Counted from the stretch's first letter, positions 7,959-19,912 are shown. The stretch is 64,000 nucleotides of DNA from Desulfobulbus sp. (GCF_030824455.1 NZ_JAVBXR010000124.1:1-64000); one strand, 5' to 3'. Notes: generated from the letters alone by a model not told the origin. Numbers and translations are program-made.

Positions 7959-10900
7959 ATGTCCGTTGAGCCCTGCCCGTTGCCCCTTGCCTCCGACGCC
8001 CTCAAGGCCAATCTGCGGGAAACCGCCGCCCCTGTGGTGATCAGCCCGCGCTACGCCCTATTGCGCGAGGTGGTCTGTCGGTTCCAGGGCATCCTGGGCA
8101 AACTGGACGCCCTGCTTTATGAAATCAGCCATCCCTACCATAATTGGAAGTTGATCATCCCGGAATTGCGGGCCTTTGCCCTGAAAAACCTCAATCACTA
8201 CCGCGACCACGAGCAGGGGCCCGAGGCCTTTGCCCTGTTCACCGGCATTTTTTTCGACGCCCTCAAGGATTCGAGCCGCAACGACCAGTTGCTCCAGCGC
8301 ATTCTGGAAGGCATGCTCGCCTATGCCGACAAGCTGATCCTCTCCCTGGACGGCGCCGCGCTCTTTCGTTTTGAGCAGGTCTTTGCCGATTTTTTCACCC
8401 GCCTGCGCGAACTCGACAAAACCGAACCGCTGGTGATGCTGTCCATGGTCCAGGGCCATCATCCGGTGCGCAAGATGGCGCAGAAGGTGATCGCCCTGCG
8501 CCAGCAGCAGCCTGAGCAGCCCTTTGACCTGCGGGCGCTGGCCCAGTTGATGCGCACCATTTTGCTCCGCAATTACGAATACTGGCTGAGCGAGGAAGAT
8601 CCCCTGCCCTGGTTTGAGGCGCAGTGCGGCGACTACTGCCGGCAATGGCACGGCCAGGACCTGCTGCTGGCCATCTCGCACCAGCGCATCCGCGAATGCC
8701 TGCAGATTCTCGAAGGGGTGGACTTTACCGCCGATCACCAGGCCGGCCTGGAGCTGATCCTCACCCTGCCCAGCCACATGGACATTGTCCGCCTGTACAA
8801 AGAGATCCCGGCCAAGATGGTGGCGTTGGAACCGACAGACGAGACCTCGGCCCATTTCGTTGAAAACCGCAAGCTGCTCTTCCTCTTCCGGATCATGGAC
8901 ACCAAGGGCCTCTCCCTGATCCACGAAGAAACCCTGCGCGAGATCAACCGCAGCCTGGTGCAGCTGATTCGCAAGCAGAGCTTCGAGGAGATCGAGCAGT
9001 TTTTCGTCACCACCTTCCACCTGCTCAAGGCCAATGTCCGCCGCTACCCGCACACCTCGCTGCAGTGCATCCAGGTAATTGGCAACGAGGTGTTCAAGCG
9101 CGGCAACTCCCGTCTGGTCGAAGCCTTTCTCTGGGAGGCGGTGCGGTTCGGCTTCCAGTATGCGGGGGTGCGCGGCGTCGACGAGGACTGGCAGCCCATT
9201 GCCAACCCAGCCCATCTGACCAACATCCGCATCTGGCTCAATCTGATCGAGCAGGAGCCCAAATGGTGCTCCACCCTGTTCTCGGCCCTGATCATCAACC
9301 TGCGCCTCTCGGGCACCTGCGTCCGCGACACCGACCTGTTCCAGCGCGACGTCACCGAGCTGCTCAACCACCCCATCGGCCCGATCTACAACCTGGCCAA
9401 GCAGTTCACCAAGCTGATGCCGGTCTTTTTCAACGAAATCGGGGCCGAAGGCGAGCTGCGCGACGTGTCCACCGAACTCGACGAGATCCACAAGCGCAAG
9501 GACATCCTGATCCACTTCCTGCGCAAACAGGCCCATGTGGAATCGAGCAACCTGATCGTCGGCTTCATCGAGGCCATTTTCACCTTCTGGATCACCCTGG
9601 ACCGCAATTATCTGCGCGAATACCTGCCCGACGAGGTGCTGCATCAGCTGCAGACCGAGGGCGCCTATGTCGACGACCAGCACCAGCTGGCGCTGCGGAT
9701 CAAAAAGGAGCTGCGCTTCACCCGCATGGCCCAGATTCTGGCCTGGCCCGACGACGAGCGCCAGCAATTTCTTGACCGCCAACAGGACCTCTCCGAGGTC
9801 GAAAGGCGGCGCTTTGCCCTGCTGGTGCGGATGTACAAGCTGCTCCATCTCAAATACAACCTCAGCCTGCCCGAGATCCAGAGCCAGCTGCACCACGCGG
9901 TCAACGCCGGCTTTCCCGAGCTGACCCATCTCCTCGACGTGCTGGAGGCCAACGACCCGATCCACTGCCTGGACGCCCTGCTGGACGAACTCGAACACCT
10001 GCAGGAGGTGATTCTCAGCGCCGAGAAGTTCGAGCCCAAAGAGGAGATCTACTACAAGCGGCACATCGCAGTCGACATCCCCTCGGTTTACGGCCGCTAC
10101 AGCGAGCGCAAGTTCGACGCCCTCGGCCTCACCTTCCGCCTGGAAAGCCTGGCCAACGTCTACCTAGAGCGGTTGTTCGCCACGGTCAACCTCAGCTTCA
10201 TCACCCAGGCAACCTTTATCCGCATCCTCAAATGTCTGCGGCTTTTCACCCGCGCCCTGCAGATCGACGGCATCTCCAGCCGCCGCCTCGACACCTACAT
10301 CAGCCTGCTGGCCACCTCCATCGGCATTCGGCGCTTTTCCTACACCCAGCACCTCGACATCATGCGGGGCCTTTCCGAGGGGGTCAAGGACATCATCTAC
10401 GCCTACTACACCAATGTCCACCAGAACAACCTGTCGATCATCGTGCCCCAGATCGGCCAGGACAACCTCCTGCTCAAGTACCACAGTTCCTGGGACGAGA
10501 AAAACATGCCCGAGACCGTGCTCAAGCTCTCGGAGATGTTCTTCCGCGACCTGATTTCCACCACCTTCGGGTTGCAGCACCTGGACAACTTCATCGGCAA
10601 GGTCATCGGCACCCTGGAGGCGCAGAAGGACATCCTGGATGAAAAAACCCTGGACCTGCTGATGACCTACAACCCGGAAAAGGCGATCAGCAGCCTGCAC
10701 GCGGAAAACCTGCGCACCCACAACCTGATTCACCTCGGCAACAAGGGCTTCAACCTGGTGGTGCTGAACCGCGACAAGATGCCGGTGCCGCCGGCCTTTA
10801 TCATCACCACCGAGGTCTTCCGCTGCTACCGGGCGATCCGCAAATTTGAGCGAGCCCGCGACGAATACATGCGGCGGGTGCGGGCGGCGGTCACGGCCAT

Positions 10901-12218
10901 CGAACAGCTGACCGGGCTGATCTTCGGTTCGCCGGAACGGCCGCTGCTCCTGTCGGTGCGTTCCGGGGCCGCCATCTCCATGCCGGGAATCATGTCCACC
11001 ATCCACAACGTGGGCGCCAACGAGGAGATGGTCGAGGAGTACGTGGCCATCCATCCGGACGCCAAATATTTTGCCTGGGACAACTTCCGCCGCTTTCTCC
11101 AGTCCTGGGGCATGGCCAACGGCATGGAGCGCGAGGATTTCCAGGAGCTGATGAACACCCACAAGCGGCAGCACAAGGTCCACTACAAACGCGATTTTTC
11201 GCCGGAGCAGATGCGGCAGCTGGCGCTCAACTACCAGCGCGCCCTGCGCGGACGCGGCTTCGGCATGCCCGAGGACCCTTGGCTGCAGCTGATCGGCGCG
11301 GTGGACATGGTGTTTGACAGCTGGCATACGCCCAAGGCCGAGGAATACCGCCACCTGATGGGCGTTTCCGACGACTGGGGCACGGCGGTTATCGTCCAGA
11401 CCATGGTCTTTGGCAACCTCGGCGTTCAGGCCGGCAGCGGGGTGCTGTTCACCGCCCATCCCTACCGCAAGGTGCGGCGGGTGGCCCTGTGGGGCGATTA
11501 CGCCATTGGCGATCAAGGCGAGGATATTGTTTCCGGCCTGGTCACCAGCCACCCGATCTCAGTGGAGCAGGCGGAAATCGACGGCCGCGACGAAAACAAG
11601 AGCCTGGAGCGGCAATTTCCCAAAGTCTACCAGCGATTGCTCGGCATCAGCCGTGAACTGGTCTACGACAAGGAATGGAACCCGCAGGAGATCGAATTCA
11701 CCTTCGAAGGCCCGGAACCGGAGCAGTTGTACCTGCTGCAGACCCGCGACATGATCACCATCAAGAAAAAGGAGCATCTCAACGTCTTTGTCGATTCCGA
11801 TCTGGCCCACAAGGCGATCCTGGCCAAGGGCATCGGCGTTTCCGGTTCGGCGATGTCGGGCAAGGCGGTGTTCAACGAGGACAACATCAGCCGGTTGCGG
11901 ATGGAGGAACCCGGCACGCCGCTGATCCTCATCCGCCGCGACACCGTGCCCGAGGACATCCGCGAGATTTCCCTCGCCGACGGCCTGGTGACCTCGCGCG
12001 GCGGCCAGACCTCGCACGCCTCGGTGGTGGCCACCCGCCTGGAAAAAACCTGCGTGGTCGGCTGCCGCGACATGCAGGTGTTTGAAACCGACGAATACGC
12101 CGAAATAAACGGCGCCCGCATCGCCTTTGGCGCCCCGATCTCCATCGACGGCCGCCACGGCCTACTCATCGAGGGCAACTACCCCCTGCGCGAAGAGGTG
12201 CATATTCTGCCGCTGTGA
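7959..12218 (+). CDS. PPDK-like dikinase: ATP-binding plus phosphohistidine domains behind a large unknown N-terminal region
   Basis: 1,419 residues. The C-terminal third is homologous to pyruvate phosphate dikinase/PEP synthase. The ATP-binding domain runs from LGNKGFNLVVLNR (about 925) through LLSVRSGAAISMPGIMSTIHNVG (about 995-1020) and LGVQAGSGVLFTAHP (about 1155). The swivelling phosphohistidine domain has TSRGGQTSHASVVA with the likely phosphoacceptor His near 1353. The protein ends soon after this domain, so the C-terminal TIM barrel that binds PEP/pyruvate in PPDK is missing. Residues 1-900 are mostly helical by composition and not recognised. The enzyme probably transfers a phosphate from ATP through the His to a substrate other than pyruvate. 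The ATG at 7959 was preferred over TTG at 7953. No partner gene is evident. Confidence 0.8.
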   Translation: MSVEPCPLPLASDALKANLRETAAPVVISPRYALLREVVCRFQGILGKLDALLYEISHPYHNWKLIIPELRAFALKNLNHYRDHEQGPEAFALFTGIFFDALKDSSRNDQLLQRILEGMLAYADKLILSLDGAALFRFEQVFADFFTRLRELDKTEPLVMLSMVQGHHPVRKMAQKVIALRQQQPEQPFDLRALAQLMRTILLRNYEYWLSEEDPLPWFEAQCGDYCRQWHGQDLLLAISHQRIRECLQILEGVDFTADHQAGLELILTLPSHMDIVRLYKEIPAKMVALEPTDETSAHFVENRKLLFLFRIMDTKGLSLIHEETLREINRSLVQLIRKQSFEEIEQFFVTTFHLLKANVRRYPHTSLQCIQVIGNEVFKRGNSRLVEAFLWEAVRFGFQYAGVRGVDEDWQPIANPAHLTNIRIWLNLIEQEPKWCSTLFSALIINLRLSGTCVRDTDLFQRDVTELLNHPIGPIYNLAKQFTKLMPVFFNEIGAEGELRDVSTELDEIHKRKDILIHFLRKQAHVESSNLIVGFIEAIFTFWITLDRNYLREYLPDEVLHQLQTEGAYVDDQHQLALRIKKELRFTRMAQILAWPDDERQQFLDRQQDLSEVERRRFALLVRMYKLLHLKYNLSLPEIQSQLHHAVNAGFPELTHLLDVLEANDPIHCLDALLDELEHLQEVILSAEKFEPKEEIYYKRHIAVDIPSVYGRYSERKFDALGLTFRLESLANVYLERLFATVNLSFITQATFIRILKCLRLFTRALQIDGISSRRLDTYISLLATSIGIRRFSYTQHLDIMRGLSEGVKDIIYAYYTNVHQNNLSIIVPQIGQDNLLLKYHSSWDEKNMPETVLKLSEMFFRDLISTTFGLQHLDNFIGKVIGTLEAQKDILDEKTLDLLMTYNPEKAISSLHAENLRTHNLIHLGNKGFNLVVLNRDKMPVPPAFIITTEVFRCYRAIRKFERARDEYMRRVRAAVTAIEQLTGLIFGSPERPLLLSVRSGAAISMPGIMSTIHNVGANEEMVEEYVAIHPDAKYFAWDNFRRFLQSWGMANGMEREDFQELMNTHKRQHKVHYKRDFSPEQMRQLALNYQRALRGRGFGMPEDPWLQLIGAVDMVFDSWHTPKAEEYRHLMGVSDDWGTAVIVQTMVFGNLGVQAGSGVLFTAHPYRKVRRVALWGDYAIGDQGEDIVSGLVTSHPISVEQAEIDGRDENKSLERQFPKVYQRLLGISRELVYDKEWNPQEIEFTFEGPEPEQLYLLQTRDMITIKKKEHLNVFVDSDLAHKAILAKGIGVSGSAMSGKAVFNEDNISRLRMEEPGTPLILIRRDTVPEDIREISLADGLVTSRGGQTSHASVVATRLEKTCVVGCRDMQVFETDEYAEINGARIAFGAPISIDGRHGLLIEGNYPLREEVHILPL

Positions 12219-12367
12219 GGCGGGGGGCTTCCTGGGGAGCCCTGCTTTCTCCTTGCCGCGCCTCGCCCGGCATCTGCACAAAATTTTCTTTGCACTATGT
12301 TTTTTTTGTGCTAAGGATTCCTTGTACAGGATTCACTGTGCATAACCGCCGGGAGGAGGAACAACAG

Positions 12368-13621
12368 ATGGGGCAGAACACCAAAATGAACAACATTGCC
12401 GGGCCGCCGGTTGAAGGCGACGACTTTTTTGGGCGTGAGCAAGCGGTTTCCGCCTTGCGCGATCTGCTTGAGCATCACGACGTCCTGTTGCTTGGTCCGC
12501 GACGAATCGGCAAGACCTCCGCCGCCCGCAGGATTCTGGCCGGGATTCGCACTGAAGGGTGGCGAGCGATTGAAGTCAACGTGGCGGCCTGCAAGGACGA
12601 ACGCGGCCTGATCGACAAACTGCGCACCGCCCTGGTGGCCGAGTTGACGCCGGTTGCCGGCAAGGTTGGCGCAGTGGTCGACAAGGCCCGCGCGGCGATA
12701 GGGTTGACCGCAATCGAGTCAGTCACATACAGTGCCGGGGAAACAGGAACAGTCGAGGTAACGCTGCGCGACGGCAGCGAAGGAGATTGGACTAGGGCGA
12801 CCGGCGACGTGGCCGGCCTCATCGGCCAAAGCCAAACCCCGCTTCTGATCTACATGGATGAACTGCCCATCCTGTTGTTCAACATCATCACAACAGACCC
12901 GCACAACGGGGTGCAGCGGGTGCGCCGCTTCCTCGACTGGTTCCGCAACGACCTGCGCAATCTTCCCGGCGGCGGCAAGGCCCGCTGGCTGATCACCGGC
13001 TCGGTGGGCCTGGACACCTTGGTGCAACAGCACGGGATGGCCGACGCCGTCAACAGCCTCAAACACCAGACCTTGGAACCCTTCACTGCCCCTGAGGCCG
13101 TCGCCCTACTCAACAAATTAGCAGCCAGCTATGCGGTTTCATTGACCGAGGAGGAATCGCAGGCAATCGTTGCCGCCCTTCGCTGGCCCCAGCCCTATTA
13201 CCTGCAGCTTTTTTTCAACGAATTGCGCGCCATGACGCAAGGGCCGTCCGCCAGCCGCCTAGGCGAGCACATCGAACAGGTCCTGGAGCAGATGATCACC
13301 TCCAGCGCCGACAACGATTTCCACCATTGGGAAGAACGCCTGACCATCCAGCTCTGCCCCGCCGACGCCCAGCACGCCCTGGCCCTGCTGGGCCGCACCG
13401 CCCACGACCCCCAAGGCGTTCGGGTCGAAACCCTGCTGGCCGAACAGCACGAACGCTTGCCCCATGCCGACGCCGACGAGGCCCGGCGCACCTTTATCCG
13501 CCTGCGCGACGTGTTGATCCGCGACGCCTACTGGTTGGCGGACGAAAGTTCGGGCGTCAAACGCTACCGCTTCCGCCTTGAGCCCCTGCGCCGCTGGTGG
13601 GCACGGAGGAACACCCTATGA
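12368..13621 (+). CDS. P-loop ATPase, archaeal-type/STAND-like, first of a pair
   Basis: 417 residues. It opens almost at once with the ATPase core: FFGREQAVSALRDLL, then the Walker A motif GPRRIGKT (43-50) and Walker B LLIYMDE near residue 160. A sensor strand WLITGSVGLD and a helical lid follow, then a C-terminal winged-helix-like part ending RYRFRLEPLRRWWARR, which is typical of the archaeal ATPase (PF01637-like) branch of STAND NTPases. No effector domain precedes the NTPase. The ATG at 12368 follows GGGAGGAGGA. Its TGA overlaps the ATG of the next gene, which encodes a second ATPase, so the two should be made together. The role is unknown; signalling or defence is plausible. Confidence 0.75.
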   Translation: MGQNTKMNNIAGPPVEGDDFFGREQAVSALRDLLEHHDVLLLGPRRIGKTSAARRILAGIRTEGWRAIEVNVAACKDERGLIDKLRTALVAELTPVAGKVGAVVDKARAAIGLTAIESVTYSAGETGTVEVTLRDGSEGDWTRATGDVAGLIGQSQTPLLIYMDELPILLFNIITTDPHNGVQRVRRFLDWFRNDLRNLPGGGKARWLITGSVGLDTLVQQHGMADAVNSLKHQTLEPFTAPEAVALLNKLAASYAVSLTEEESQAIVAALRWPQPYYLQLFFNELRAMTQGPSASRLGEHIEQVLEQMITSSADNDFHHWEERLTIQLCPADAQHALALLGRTAHDPQGVRVETLLAEQHERLPHADADEARRTFIRLRDVLIRDAYWLADESSGVKRYRFRLEPLRRWWARRNTL

Positions 13622-16600
13622 GCGGCGGCGTTCCCATGCACCACTACAACCCGGACTGGCTCAACGACGACGATCTGGCGGCTAATTTTGTGGCCCGCCA
13701 GGAGGAATTCACCTTTCTGCGCAACGAATTGGCGCGCACCCCCCGTCAGGGTGGGGCCCAACACTACCTGCTGGTGGGCGTGCGCGGGGCCGGCAAGACC
13801 ACCCTGCTCAAGCGTTTGGCCGTGGCCATCCGCCGCGACAACGATCTCAACGACCATCTGGTCGCCCTTTCCTTTCCGGAAGAGTTGTACCAAGTGAAAC
13901 ATCTGGCCGATTTCTGGTGGGCCGCTTGCGAGGCCTTGGCCGACGAACTTGACCGCGACGACCAGACCGCTGCGGCCGACCAACTGCTGGCCGCCGTTGA
14001 CCAAGCCAAAGGGCAGGCCGCCTCCGACGACGCTTTGGCCGACGACGGCTTGCGTCTGCTGCTGGAAACCTGCGCCGGGTTGGAACGGCGGCCGGTGTTG
14101 CTGGTGGACAATCTGGATCTGGTCTTCCAGCGCATCGAAAAAACCGGGCGCAAGTTGAAAAACCCCCATGCCCCGGCCTACTGGAGCTTTCGCGAGGCCT
14201 TGTCCACCGCTGTTTCACCGGTGGTTATCGGCGGGTCGGTGCGTCTGTCGGAACCCTTCACCGATTACGACAAAGCCTTTTACGATTTTTTCATTCCCAA
14301 ACGGTTGGGCAAACTCCCCCTGAACGAGGTGCGCCGGGTGCTGGAACGGTTGGCCGAGGTCCGAGACCTGCCCGAAATCAGGGAGCGGTTGCAGACCCGT
14401 CCCGGCCGCCTTGAGGCCCTGCACGAACTGACCGGGGGCAATCCCCGCGCCCTGGGGCTGATCTTCGAGTTGCTGCGCCAGGGGCCCAACAGCCGTGCCG
14501 TCGAGGATTTCGAGCGATTGATGGACAGCGCCACCCCCTATTACAAGGCCCGCTTCGAGGATCTGTCCGACCAGGCCCAGGTGGTGATGCACGCCCTGGC
14601 CGTCCGGCGGCCCGGCGACGGCCAGAGCCTGCGTTTCGGCCACACCGCCGCCGAGATCGGCAGCCACGCCCGCCTGCCCACCAACACCGTCTCCGCCCAA
14701 CTGGATATTCTGGCGCGCGAAGGGCTGGTGGAAAAAAACGCGGCCCACGGCCGCACCCAATACCGCATTGCCGAACAACTGTTCCGCCTCTGGCTGCAGA
14801 TGCGCGGCAACCGCCGCCTTCGCCAGAACGTCATCGGCCTCACCGAATTTCTCGAAGCCCTGTTCGAGCCCGAAGAACTCAGGCGCGGCCTGTACGAGGA
14901 CACCAGCGCCGGCAAGCTGGCCCAAGCACGACTTGCCTTTGCCGCCGCCGACGTGCGCTGTCTGGCGCCGTTCCGCTCCGGCCTGCTCGCCCATGGCGCG
15001 GATGCGGCCCTGCGGCACACGCAAGACCTGGGCGAACCCATCGAGCCTTACCTGAGCCCAAGCGAGCTGCCGGAGGATCTGGCCACCCTGGTGCGACTCC
15101 GCGAACAGTTGCGCCTAGGCAAGGTTGGCTTGAAGCCTGAAGAGCAGGACGGTCTGCTCGGGTCAACCGTTTTGAGCCCGGAGCAGAAAGAACGCGGCGT
15201 CACGGCGCTGTGCTCTCCAAAAACGGCGCTGGAGGAAGCTGGCCGCCTGCAGGCCAGACTTGAGCAGGAACGCGGCAATCTCATCCGCTGGGGCTTGCGC
15301 CCGGAGGATGTGGCGCTGTTGTGGCGCAAACGGGCTATGGGGCTATTGCCCCTGCCCGACCTGAAACCCCAGGATGCGGAGTCCGCCTGCCTGAACGAAC
15401 AGGATGCATCGGCCTGCCGGGCCATGATCTGGCGGTTGCTTGGCGCACTGGACCTGGTCCGCTTCACCAATGACGAGCAGGCGCGGGAATGGCTCAACTG
15501 GGGCTTGCAGCAGGCAGAGGATGCCAGCGCTGCGGAATGGGCCAAAGTGGCCGGCGCCATGCGGCGATCCCATTGCTTTGAACCCGCCCGACAGGTCTTG
15601 GATCAAGCGGTGCAGCGCGGTACGGCGTCACGGGTTTGGTACGAACGCGGAGTATTGTTGGATGACATGCAGGGTGATCCTCATGAAGCTGAAGCCGCTT
15701 ATCGCAAGGCTATTGAGCTTGACCCGACCGACGCCTTGCCTTGGATTAGTCTAGGCATCCTGCTGGCAGACAAACTCAACCGACACGACGAGGCAGAAGC
15801 AGCATACCACAAGGCCATTGAACTTGGCCCTGTCCATGCATTGCCATGGTTCGCGCTGGGAAACCTGCTGGACTACAAACTCGACCGGATTAACGAGGCA
15901 GAGGCCGCATACCGTAGGGCTATTGAAATTGACCCCGCCTTTGCCTTGCCGTGGTTCGCGCTGGGCTTCCTACTGGACAACAAACTCAACCGGATTGACG
16001 AAGCAGAGGCTGCATACCGCAAAGCTATCGAACTTGATCCAACCGATGCCTTGCCGTGGTGTGCCCTGGGAGACCTGTTAGACGAAAAGCTCAACCGCTA
16101 TGATGAAGCAGAGGCTGCATACCGCAAGGCTATCGAACTTGACCCTGCCTACATCTTACCGTGGTTAAATCTGGGCCTCCTGCTAACAGCTCAATTCGAC
16201 CGGCCCAAGGAGGCAGAGGCTGCATACCGCAAAGCCATCGAGCTCGACCCAGACGATGCCAGACCGTGGAACAACTTGGGCAACCTGCTGGCCGACAAAG
16301 GCAATCTCACCGAAGCCGTAGCCGCCTTTGCCCGAGGCGCTGCATTGGAATCGGACAGGCATCCGTATTGGCGGAGTCGGTACACCGAGGTGCAGGCCCG
16401 GCTTGCTTCGACGGCAGCGCAACAGGCCCTGGCAACCGGGAACGCTGGCGCCTTGGCCGAAGCCTTGGCCCACCTTGCAACCCAGGCGGTCGACCTGGCC
16501 GCCGCCCTGGTCAGCCCAGTCTTTATCGAGGAATTCCTTGCCCCCTCGCTGAAGGACGCTCATCAAGCGGAAACCCTCCTGGCCGCGCTGCGGGCCGCAG

Positions 16601-16749
16601 GGTACGACCGCCATGGACGCCCTTTGCTCTTGGCTTACGAGGCGGCGCTGCGCAATAGCCCCGACATGCTGACCGAGCTTGAACCCGAGGTGCAGGTCGC
16701 CAGCCAGCGGCTCTACGACCGGCTCACCGGCGCCAGGGCTCCGATCTAA
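13618..16749 (+). CDS. STAND-like ATPase with C-terminal TPR array, second of a pair
   Basis: 1,043 residues. An N-terminal P-loop NTPase has Walker A GVRGAGKT (54-61) and Walker B RPVLLVDNLD (about 160), and a sensor-like VVIGGSVRLS. A winged-helix region follows (about 330-400: TNTVSAQLDILAREGLVEK, then YRIAEQLFRLWLQ), then a helical linker. At about 670-913 there are seven TPR-like units, six of them in exact 35-residue register, with motif PWxxLGxLLxxKLxRxxEAEAAYRKAIELDP split over the unit. A helical C-terminal 130 residues close the protein. In STAND proteins such arrays act as sensors that trigger NTPase assembly. The gene overlaps its partner by four bases (ATGA). No nuclease, protease or other effector domain was seen. 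Confidence 0.78.
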   Translation: MSGGVPMHHYNPDWLNDDDLAANFVARQEEFTFLRNELARTPRQGGAQHYLLVGVRGAGKTTLLKRLAVAIRRDNDLNDHLVALSFPEELYQVKHLADFWWAACEALADELDRDDQTAAADQLLAAVDQAKGQAASDDALADDGLRLLLETCAGLERRPVLLVDNLDLVFQRIEKTGRKLKNPHAPAYWSFREALSTAVSPVVIGGSVRLSEPFTDYDKAFYDFFIPKRLGKLPLNEVRRVLERLAEVRDLPEIRERLQTRPGRLEALHELTGGNPRALGLIFELLRQGPNSRAVEDFERLMDSATPYYKARFEDLSDQAQVVMHALAVRRPGDGQSLRFGHTAAEIGSHARLPTNTVSAQLDILAREGLVEKNAAHGRTQYRIAEQLFRLWLQMRGNRRLRQNVIGLTEFLEALFEPEELRRGLYEDTSAGKLAQARLAFAAADVRCLAPFRSGLLAHGADAALRHTQDLGEPIEPYLSPSELPEDLATLVRLREQLRLGKVGLKPEEQDGLLGSTVLSPEQKERGVTALCSPKTALEEAGRLQARLEQERGNLIRWGLRPEDVALLWRKRAMGLLPLPDLKPQDAESACLNEQDASACRAMIWRLLGALDLVRFTNDEQAREWLNWGLQQAEDASAAEWAKVAGAMRRSHCFEPARQVLDQAVQRGTASRVWYERGVLLDDMQGDPHEAEAAYRKAIELDPTDALPWISLGILLADKLNRHDEAEAAYHKAIELGPVHALPWFALGNLLDYKLDRINEAEAAYRRAIEIDPAFALPWFALGFLLDNKLNRIDEAEAAYRKAIELDPTDALPWCALGDLLDEKLNRYDEAEAAYRKAIELDPAYILPWLNLGLLLTAQFDRPKEAEAAYRKAIELDPDDARPWNNLGNLLADKGNLTEAVAAFARGAALESDRHPYWRSRYTEVQARLASTAAQQALATGNAGALAEALAHLATQAVDLAAALVSPVFIEEFLAPSLKDAHQAETLLAALRAAGYDRHGRPLLLAYEAALRNSPDMLTELEPEVQVASQRLYDRLTGARAPI
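15727..16356 (+). repeat. six in-frame 105-bp tandem repeats (TPR units)
   Basis: The period is exactly 35 codons: units begin at 15727, 15832, 15937, 16042, 16147 and 16252. The most conserved stretch encodes EAEAAYRKAIELDP and is nearly identical at DNA level between adjacent units. This suggests recent duplication or gene conversion and a capacity to gain or lose units. A seventh, less regular unit lies just upstream. Confidence 0.9.
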
Positions 16750-16948
16750 CCATTGGACCGAGCGCCTGGAGTGGCGAGTGCGCGGCCGCCAGCCGGCCCA
16801 CAATCATTTCCCCCTTCTGTCGACGCTGCCATATTCTGTCTTTATGAACAGCGACAGGCGATATATAGTTTTGCCTCAACCACTCTCTCCGACGCGCGCA
16901 TCCTCGGAAGCGCCAGCGTTGGGTTCCTCTCCGTCCTGGTCGTCCGTC

Positions 16949-19912
16949 ATGAACAGCAGCTACCCCGCTCCCGGCTCCATCCATCCACCCGTCTTTTGTT
17001 TCACTGTCGGCGATATGAGCTGCGAACACTGCCAGGCCATGGTCGAGGCCGCGGCCATGGAGACGCCCGGAGTCTGCGAGGCGCGGGTGGATCTGGCGGC
17101 CGGGACCCTGACGGTCAGCGGCGGCGATCCCCAGGCCGTGATTCAGGCGGTGGTTGAGGCCGGCTATCCGGCTGAACTGCGCGAGACCGCCGCAGCCTGC
17201 GCATTGCCGACCGGCACGGCACCGGAAGTTGCGGCTACGGTTGCTGCCGCAAAACCGAATGATAAACCCGCAGCTGACCGCTATCTACTGCGGGTGGCGG
17301 ACATGCACTGCGCAAGTTGCGTTGGCCGGGTCGAGCAGGCCATCCTTGCCGCGCCCGGGGTGCGCGAGGCGGCAGTCAATCTGGTGGAGCAGACGGCCAG
17401 TGTGGTGGGCGGCGACCCGGCGCAAGTGGTTGCGGCTATTGTCCAGGCCGGTTACGGGGCCGCGCTTCTGGAAAACAAGCAGGATGCCGCAGCAGACGGC
17501 TACGAGGTCGACATCCTGGGCATGCACTGCGCCAGTTGCGTGAGCCGGGTGGAGGCGGCCATCCTCGCCGTGCCCGGGGTCACGGGGGCGGCGGTCAATC
17601 TGATCGAAAAAAAGGCCCAGGTGCAGGGCGGCGATCCGGCGCAGGTAGTGCAGGCGATCCTCGCCCAGGGTTATGGGGCGGCGCTGCGGCAGCGCCCCGC
17701 CAGCGACGCGTTTTTCATCCTCCTGCAGCCCCAACCGCAAAACGACGATCTGGAGCAGATCCGCCAGATCCTCCAGGCCCAGGACGCGGCCACCAACATC
17801 GTAATCGAAGACGGTCGGGTGCGCGTTGTCACTGCCCAGCATCCGGCCGACGTCCTCCTGCGGCTCTCGGACATTGGCTATCAGGCGACGCTGGAGGAAT
17901 CCTTCGCCGATCCCGGCCTCCAACAGGCAATGGAGACCCGCCTGGAAATCCGGCGTTCCTGGCGGCGGGCGATTCTGGCGGGCCTGGTCGGTTTCGGCCT
18001 CATGGCCGGGCACATGTCGGGATTTTTCCCGCATCTCCACAACGGCCAGGCGTTCTGGGCCGGCGCGGCCCTGCTCTGTCTGTTCACCATGATTTACAGC
18101 GGCGGCAATTACTTTGTCGGCGCCTGGAAGCAGGCGCGGCACGGCGCGGCCAACATGGACACCCTGGTGGCGCTGGGGACCGGCGCGGCCTGGCTGTCTT
18201 CGGTCCTGGTTATTGCCGATCCGAACTTCATCCCCGGCGCGGCCAACCACCTCTATCTCGACGCCTCGGTGATGATCCTGGCCTTTCTCCAACTGGGCCA
18301 CGCCCTGGAAACCAGGGCCAAGCGGACCACCAGCGAGGCCGTCGGCGCCCTGGTCGGCCTGCGCGCCCGCACCGCCTGGGTGATTCGCGCCAGCGGTCAG
18401 GTGGAGGTTCCGGTTTCGCTGCTGCGCATCGGCGACCGGGTGCGGGTCAAACCCGGCGAGAAGGTGCCGATTGACGGCGAGATCGTCGAAGGGCGGACCA
18501 CCCTTGACGAATCCATGCTCACCGGCGAGCCGCTGGCAGTGGCCCGCGCGGTCGGCGATCCGGTCACTGGCGGCACAATGAACCGCTCCGGGGTGTTTGT
18601 GCTGAAAGTCAGCCGGTTGGGCGACGACACCACCCTGGCCCGGATCATCCGCATGGTCAAAACAGCGCAGATGAGCAAACCGCCCATCGGCCGGCTGGTC
18701 GACCGCATTGCCGGCGTGTTTGTGCCGGTGGTCATCTGCATAAGCGTTGCGACGTTCCTCACCTGGCTGGGATTTGCCTCGGAACTGCCCCTGGCGCACG
18801 GACTGACCGCCGCCATCGCGGTGCTGGTGATTGCCTGCCCCTGCGCCCTGGGGCTGGCGACGCCGATTGCGATCATGGTGGGAACTAGCCGGGCCGCCGA
18901 GTGCAATGTCCTGATCCGCAACAGTGACGCCCTGCAGACCGCCTCCAGTTTGACCCATGTGGTGGTCGACAAAACCGGCACCCTCACCGAAGGACACCCG
19001 GCGGTGACCGCCATTTTCCCGACTGAAGGCGTAAAGGCTGCCGAGGTGTTGCACTGGGCGGCCAGCCTGGAAAGCGGCTCCGAACATCCCCTGGCCGAGG
19101 CGGTGCTGACGGCCCAGCTGGAGCGCGGCGAGCCCCTGTTGCCCCTGGAAAATTTCGTCGCCGTTCCCGGTCGGGGCGTGCAGGCGGAGCATGCGGGGGT
19201 GCGCTTTCTTTTGGGCAACCACCATTTTCTGGCCGAGCATAGCGTTGCGCTGCCCGCCGATCTGCAGGCAGAGGCGCAGCGCCAGGCGGCGCAGGGCGGC
19301 ACTCCGGTCTGGCTGGCCAGAGATGGAAAGGCGCAGGGGGCGTTGATCCTCAAAGACCCGTTGCGGCCGGATTCGGCGGCGGCGGTTGCCGCGCTGCAGC
19401 AACAAGGTATTCGCGTGGTGATGTGCAGCGGCGACAACCGGGCCACCGCCGAGGCTGTGGCCCGCGAGGTGGGCGTCAGCGAGGTGCACAGCGAGATTCT
19501 GCCCGAGCAGAAACTGCAGGTGATTCAAGCCCTGCAGCAGCAGGGGTTCAAGGTCGGCATGGTCGGCGACGGGGTCAACGACGCCCCGGCCCTGGCTCAG
19601 GCCGACACCGGCTTTGCCCTGGGCGGCGGCTCCGACGTGGCCATCGAAAACGCCGACATCACCCTCACCGGCGACTCGCTCCTGCTGGTGGCCACCGCCA
19701 TTGGCGTTTCCACCGCCACCATCCGCAACATCAAACAGAACCTGTTCGGGGCCTTTATCTACAACATCATCGGCATTCCCCTGGCCGCCGGCCTGTTCTA
19801 TCCGCTCACCGGCTGGCAATTGGAGCCGATGTTTGCCAGCGCCGCCATGGCCCTTTCTTCGGTGACCGTGGTCACCAACGCCAACCGGCTCCGTTTTTTC
19901 CGGCCCCGATAA
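16949..19912 (+). CDS. copA: copper-translocating P-type ATPase
   Basis: 987 residues, P1B-type ATPase that pumps Cu(I) out of the cytoplasm. Three N-terminal heavy-metal-associated domains carry CxxC motifs (MSCEHC, MHCASC, MHCASC) at about residues 24, 117 and 194. A fourth domain-like segment (about 250-310) has the fold pattern but no CxxC. The membrane core has the CPC copper site in VIACPCALGLATP, the actuator motif LTGEP, the phosphorylation motif DKTGTLTEG, the SEHPLAEA motif and GDGVNDAPALAQAD. The start at 16949 is uncertain: no clear ribosome site, and an in-frame ATG exists at 16844. Bases 16750-16948 hold nothing I can assign. Confidence 0.93.
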   Translation: MNSSYPAPGSIHPPVFCFTVGDMSCEHCQAMVEAAAMETPGVCEARVDLAAGTLTVSGGDPQAVIQAVVEAGYPAELRETAAACALPTGTAPEVAATVAAAKPNDKPAADRYLLRVADMHCASCVGRVEQAILAAPGVREAAVNLVEQTASVVGGDPAQVVAAIVQAGYGAALLENKQDAAADGYEVDILGMHCASCVSRVEAAILAVPGVTGAAVNLIEKKAQVQGGDPAQVVQAILAQGYGAALRQRPASDAFFILLQPQPQNDDLEQIRQILQAQDAATNIVIEDGRVRVVTAQHPADVLLRLSDIGYQATLEESFADPGLQQAMETRLEIRRSWRRAILAGLVGFGLMAGHMSGFFPHLHNGQAFWAGAALLCLFTMIYSGGNYFVGAWKQARHGAANMDTLVALGTGAAWLSSVLVIADPNFIPGAANHLYLDASVMILAFLQLGHALETRAKRTTSEAVGALVGLRARTAWVIRASGQVEVPVSLLRIGDRVRVKPGEKVPIDGEIVEGRTTLDESMLTGEPLAVARAVGDPVTGGTMNRSGVFVLKVSRLGDDTTLARIIRMVKTAQMSKPPIGRLVDRIAGVFVPVVICISVATFLTWLGFASELPLAHGLTAAIAVLVIACPCALGLATPIAIMVGTSRAAECNVLIRNSDALQTASSLTHVVVDKTGTLTEGHPAVTAIFPTEGVKAAEVLHWAASLESGSEHPLAEAVLTAQLERGEPLLPLENFVAVPGRGVQAEHAGVRFLLGNHHFLAEHSVALPADLQAEAQRQAAQGGTPVWLARDGKAQGALILKDPLRPDSAAAVAALQQQGIRVVMCSGDNRATAEAVAREVGVSEVHSEILPEQKLQVIQALQQQGFKVGMVGDGVNDAPALAQADTGFALGGGSDVAIENADITLTGDSLLLVATAIGVSTATIRNIKQNLFGAFIYNIIGIPLAAGLFYPLTGWQLEPMFASAAMALSSVTVVTNANRLRFFRPR

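Follow-up and report, generated by a model that had tools for sequence, protein, structure and literature searches.

A barrel-less PPDK-like dikinase that co-occurs with a divergent GAPDH homologue across the Desulfobacterota

The window analysed here, a whole stretch of 64,000 nucleotides from Desulfobulbus sp. (GCF_030824455.1, NZ_JAVBXR010000124.1:1-64000), contains at 7959-12218 on the plus strand one intact gene for a protein of 1419 amino acids, which has no internal stops and for which a TTG 6 bases upstream is a possible alternative start. The host genome is Desulfobulbus-like, and the named loci nearest to the gene, among the best 80 loci of the contig scan, were those of Desulfobulbus. 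The gene and its product, referred to below as the dikinase, are laid out as follows.

7959..12218, plus strand: barrel-less PPDK-like dikinase, 1419 aa, whole gene
7959..8825, plus strand: residues 1-289, helical, weakly conserved (conservation, model)
8826..9593, plus strand: residues 290-545, core with strong conservation and invariant polar residues (conservation; helical in two models)
9594..10025, plus strand: residues 546-689, variable helical linker (conservation)
10026..10688, plus strand: residues 690-910, second conserved block (conservation)
10731..11768, plus strand: residues 925-1270, PPDK-type ATP-grasp domain with K929, R1001, E1244, E1246, Q1261 and R1263 (Pfam, PDB sequence, alignment)
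11829..12128, plus strand: residues 1291-1390, swivelling phosphohistidine domain (Pfam, structure comparison)
12015..12017, plus strand: codon of the catalytic His1353, in the motif GGQTSHA (sequence, alignment)

A sequence-only reading of the window had placed PPDK-type ATP-binding and phosphohistidine domains at about residues 925-1390, with the histidine near 1353, and had the protein ending there without a PEP/pyruvate barrel. These coordinates proved right in Pfam and PDB sequence searches, Pfam matching PPDK_N at residues 975-1208 (1.9e-29) and PEP-utilizers at 1324-1389 (1.1e-16). The barrel, PEP-utilizers_C (PF02896), gave no Pfam match in the 1419 residues, and the C-terminus falls 276-348 residues short of those of PPDKs from the same phylum. 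A role in a defence system was rejected, as PADLOC returned no defence-system match for the dikinase. Downstream in the window, the dikinase is separated from a copper P-type ATPase (16679-19912) by a gene for an AAA_16 ATPase (12215-13621, plus strand) and one for an AAA_16-plus-TPR protein (13597-16749, plus strand). In the close relatives L055, L057 and L061 a gene of the copper ATPase family comes after the dikinase, a small ORF at most intervening, and the AAA_16 pair therefore looks like a lineage-specific insert.

The catalytic half closely resembles that of pyruvate, phosphate dikinase (PPDK). In a search of PDB sequences, residues 922-1412 aligned with residues 16-513 of Clostridium symbiosum PPDK (2.8e-75), and the ATP-grasp and His domains of the predicted model matched PPDK structure 1dik with a VIA Z of 35 at about 32% identity. 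The catalytic Lys22, Arg92, Arg337, Thr453 and His455 of PPDK correspond to K929, R1001, R1263, T1351 and H1353 of the dikinase; these five residues, together with E1246 and Q1261, were invariant in 21 diverse dikinases and in 12 PPDKs of the phylum, the aligned PPDK residues serving in ATP binding, phosphate binding and phosphoryl carrying. Asp321 of PPDK is replaced by Glu (E1244) in all 21 dikinases, a conservative change. As a whole, however, the dikinase lies below the curated cut-offs of the PPDK models, scoring 350.4 bits against the 843.45 of TIGR01828 and 300.6 bits against the 456 of NF004531 (PRK05878), a short model for PPDK that spans 534 positions. Moreover, in a tree of the catalytic half a long branch with an SH-aLRT of 100 parts the dikinase family from the PPDKs, and some genomes carry both proteins. 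The dikinase thus belongs to an old, separate lineage, probably an active one, and is not a truncated PPDK.

The approximately 910 residues in front of the ATP-grasp domain had been described in the sequence-only reading as being of no recognised fold, and the searches agreed with this. Residues 1 to about 910 had no Pfam match even at an E value of 10, a profile search of the N-terminal region against PDB sequences gave no match, and no homologue of the region turned up in the plasmids searched. An AlphaFold2 model of residues 5-925 was almost entirely helical, with a mean pLDDT of 77.6 and a pTM of 0.57; the core at 290-545 was helical in two models, with several invariant loops at low pLDDT. 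With the model of residues 5-925, Foldseek found nothing below 1e-3 (best E 1.4e-3, TM about 0.1), and VIA gave a best Z of 9.5 at 18.8 A together with middling scores against helical-repeat proteins, which rose to a Z of 10-11 for residues of about 290-500 of the second model. These structural matches were weak and unspecific, many of them being helical-repeat scaffolds. We therefore rejected a known fold for the region and claim no fold for it, new or old, because the scores are what helical models give by chance. The structure prediction and fold search thus recognised no known regulatory module. Rifampin phosphotransferase (RPH) was not among the fold-search matches listed for residues 5-925, and the region may still be akin to it.

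Conservation was measured as the mean frequency of the top residue over 118 diverse dikinase homologues. By this measure residues 290-545 (0.75) and 690-910 (0.71) are on a par with the ATP-grasp (0.69) and His (0.73) domains, the values for residues 1-289 and 546-689 being 0.48 and 0.54. The invariant residues include H419, R424, D457, D459, R501, D508, E509, R513, D515, H519, R522, K523, Q524, H526 and E528 in the first block and K700, R701, H702, S709, Y711, Y714, E716, K718, R727 and E729 in the second; many of the N-terminal invariants are Arg, Lys, His, Asp or Glu, and several lie in loops. In their sequence, such conserved charged blocks resemble an active or ligand site, and they lend support to the earlier suggestion that the N-terminal region may provide a new substrate site. 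For the acceptor, a small molecule has a live alternative in a target protein, since a barrel-less PPDK of mycobacteria, VadK, has been proposed to regulate neighbouring metabolic enzymes (PMC13400623). The helical-repeat-like matches of the N-terminal model would also fit a protein-binding role.

Comparison with known systems sets the dikinase apart from each of them. With PPDK (TIGR01828; PDB 1kbl, 1dik) it shares the ATP-grasp and His domains of residues 922-1412, but it lacks the PEP/pyruvate barrel, carries about 910 additional N-terminal residues and forms a separate clade. VadK (Rv1127c) autophosphorylates with ATP and Mg; its gene lies near methylcitrate-cycle genes, and the protein pulls down two enzymes of the cycle, which it has been proposed to regulate (PMC13400623). 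Like the dikinase, VadK has an ATP-grasp and a His domain, no barrel, and a gene near the metabolic enzymes on which it is supposed to act. It is, however, a protein of about 50 kDa with these two domains only, against 1419 residues with some 910 conserved ones in front, and its partners are methylcitrate-cycle enzymes, whereas that of the dikinase, in another phylum, is a GAPDH homologue described below. Barrel-less PPDKs are thus already known. The lack of the barrel and the score below the cut-off place the dikinase outside PPDK, and its size and composition set it apart from VadK. RPH (PMC4844700) and the two-component HpeHI and phenylphosphate synthase (PMC12167813) combine PPDK halves with other acceptor domains. 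They resemble the dikinase in joining an ATP-grasp and a swivelling His domain to a non-barrel substrate domain, putative in the dikinase; this domain lies between ATP-grasp and His in RPH and goes with the His domain in HpeH, whereas the additional region of the dikinase precedes the ATP-grasp domain, and neither Pfam nor structure comparison revealed a substrate domain of the RIF-binding type between its ATP-grasp and His domains.

The dikinase was present in 84 of 297 Desulfobacterota genomes, at identities down to about 39%, and matches turned up in 55 of 56 relatives, the majority over the full length and 58-89% identical. It is single copy in the genome of the window and a single-copy core gene in the Desulfobulbales. 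In one complete genome (G118:C1:682947-687069) it occurs as two open frames of 652 and 809 aa, with the break at roughly residue 570-615, either by a natural split or by a frameshift. The genome of the window also encodes two proteins of about 870 aa with a phosphohistidine domain and no PEP barrel (at G000:C66:37572-37784 and G000:C35:14934-15146).

We then compared the neighbours of 121 dikinase loci, 62 of them from Desulfobulbales. A separate PEP-barrel subunit next to the dikinase was rejected: none was encoded nearby in the 121 loci, save for a single genome in which a PEP synthase-like gene lies about 3 kb away, and in the genome of the window barrels occurred only within proteins on contigs C48, C66 and C64. 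A GAPDH-family gene, on the other hand, lay within 700 bp of the dikinase in 52 of 58 loci outside the Desulfobulbales and in 30 of the 62 within, and PGK, TPI and SecG followed downstream in 22 loci. Leaving aside Desulfobulbus and its kin, many Desulfobulbales have a GAPDH gene directly upstream, in the order AroK-AroC-GlgA-GAPDH-dikinase; elsewhere the order is, for example, HPF-RapZ-EIIA-RimI-GAPDH-dikinase-GAPDH2-PGK-TPI-SecG. In Desulfobulbus, the genus of the window, the dikinase adjoins no GAPDH gene. Upstream of the dikinase, several Desulfobulbales loci have a 279-aa gene of unassigned family that separates GlgA from GAPDH (L113:5972-6808, plus strand, for instance).

Two of these neighbours might point to other functions. 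The gene for glycogen synthase, GlgA, lies upstream in 35 of the 121 loci and within 2.5 kb in 31 of the 62 Desulfobulbales loci, as would suit a bacterial counterpart of glucan, water dikinase that phosphorylates glucan or glycogen. That enzyme has carbohydrate-binding modules, and its His domain precedes its ATP-grasp domain; in the dikinase the order is the reverse and Pfam searches found no carbohydrate-binding domain. Since GlgA proximity is, in addition, almost confined to the Desulfobulbales, whereas the pairing with GAPDH2 described below extends across the phylum, we regard a glycogen-directed role as very improbable. An ATP-driven phosphorylation of a PTS protein, with the mannose-type EIIA encoded nearby in some lineages as acceptor, draws on the presence of EIIA upstream in 17 and of RapZ in 22 of the 121 loci. 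However, HPF, RapZ and PTS genes commonly cluster on their own, and none of them was found near the dikinase in Desulfobulbales loci, so this role appears hardly probable at all.

GAPDH2, the second GAPDH-family protein of the gene order given above, is a divergent homologue of about 420 aa that shares at most 41% identity with the ordinary GAPDHs encoded in these genomes and scores below the GAPDH-I cut-off. It retains the catalytic Cys and His as well as an Arg in the R231 (phosphate-site) region, and at the position of the Asp-Leu of NAD-dependent GAPDHs it has a Gly-Arg motif, which suggests that it uses NADP(H). Among the 297 genomes, 83 had both genes, 212 had neither, one had the dikinase alone and one had GAPDH2 alone (phi 0.98), so that 83 of the 84 GAPDH2 carriers also carried the dikinase; the two discordant genomes are MAGs, 76% (G165, dikinase only) and 62% complete (G131, GAPDH2 only). 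Presence and absence of the two genes were concordant inside families f16, f24, f25, f47, f63 and f68, the incomplete MAG G165 being the one exception in f24, and shared ancestry alone is therefore insufficient to account for the pairing. AprA, a patchy gene of the phylum taken as a control, gave a phi of 0.40 with the dikinase. In Desulfobulbus the two genes co-occur although they are unlinked (contigs C121 and C127). GAPDH2 was the sole GAPDH-family protein found in G082, G118 and G274, where it therefore most likely serves the triose-phosphate step. We consider it highly probable that the dikinase is partnered with GAPDH2 at this step. The GAPDH2 partner emerged from the present analysis and was absent from the sequence-only reading; the literature searched described neither this partnership nor the order of helical region, ATP-grasp and His domain, and it held no paper that deals with the dikinase itself or with any enzyme acting as a phosphoglycerate dikinase.

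Our best explanation as a whole, to which we give a probability of about 0.42, is that the protein is a phosphohistidine dikinase of the PPDK lineage acting with GAPDH2 at the triose-phosphate step, where it would most likely supply an acyl phosphate. Because the catalytic residues are intact, we infer that the ATP-grasp domain would load a phosphoryl group from ATP onto His1353, Pi probably being the second substrate as in PPDK, and release AMP and PPi; the swivelling domain would then carry this group not to a PEP barrel but to a site within the N-terminal helices. There the carboxyl of 3-phosphoglycerate or of a close C3 acid would become an acyl phosphate, which GAPDH2 would reduce to the aldehyde, so that gluconeogenesis would gain an entry beside PGK that is driven by ATP and Pi. 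A kinase followed by an acyl-phosphate reductase is a recurring design, seen with PGK and GAPDH as well as with aspartokinase and aspartate-semialdehyde dehydrogenase, and for this reason the simplest reading is that the dikinase makes the acyl phosphate of GAPDH2, which by this analogy would most likely be made from 3-phosphoglycerate. We hold acyl-kinase chemistry to have somewhat under an even chance. The full proposal, 3-phosphoglycerate + ATP + Pi -> 1,3-bisphosphoglycerate + AMP + PPi by a dikinase that has a helical acceptor domain of a new kind and is obligately paired with GAPDH2 as its dedicated GAPDH across the Desulfobacterota, is tentative and, taken as a whole, rather unlikely.

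All 14 dikinase genomes tested had PGK, and 11 of them had PK. A replacement of PGK or pyruvate kinase was therefore rejected, as was one of phosphofructokinase, since almost every genome of the phylum has PFK and so, with few exceptions, do those with the dikinase. With PGK present no bypass of it is required, and the dikinase would provide a further, driven way in, its relation to PGK being that of PEP synthase or PPDK to pyruvate kinase. PPDK chemistry is reversible, and the same site might accordingly run in the opposite direction, converting 1,3-bisphosphoglycerate + AMP + PPi to 3PG + ATP + Pi and so salvaging the AMP and PPi of sulfate activation. AprA is indeed present in the genome of the window and in 60 of the 84 dikinase genomes; however, it is missing from 24 dikinase genomes, and 60 genomes have AprA but no dikinase. 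As the two often occur apart, there is no tight tie to sulfate reduction, and we judge this direction improbable.

A further explanation, possible but on the unlikely side, is that the dikinase is a regulator like VadK, in which autophosphorylation of His1353 would sense ATP or energy and the helical region would bind or phosphorylate GAPDH2 or GAPDH, thereby setting the flux at the triose-phosphate step. The precedent is a published one, VadK being an autophosphorylating barrel-less PPDK that is encoded near, and pulls down, methylcitrate-cycle enzymes (PMC13400623), and the all-helical N-terminal model and the strict pairing with one GAPDH isoform would agree with it. Scaffolds, however, usually show fewer than the dozens of invariant charged residues found in 290-545 and 690-910, the dikinase scores below the cut-off of the NF004531 PPDK model, and a regulator should sometimes be lost with its target kept, of which the 62%-complete MAG is the only case. 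Because of the polar N-terminal invariants, and because GAPDH2 was never clearly seen without the dikinase, we rank regulation second to phosphoryl transfer at the triose-phosphate step.

In summary, a core single-copy gene of a major group of sulfate- and sulfur-metabolising bacteria encodes a phosphohistidine engine that, by its residues, looks to be in working order, and its near-perfect pairing with GAPDH2 confines the search for the acceptor to the triose-phosphate step or the GAPDH2 protein. If the proposal is true, an acyl-phosphate-forming dikinase would be an undescribed enzyme of central carbon metabolism, acting there as PPDK does at pyruvate. Whether a new gluconeogenic reaction or a second PPDK turned regulator, either would alter the accepted picture of lower glycolysis in these bacteria.
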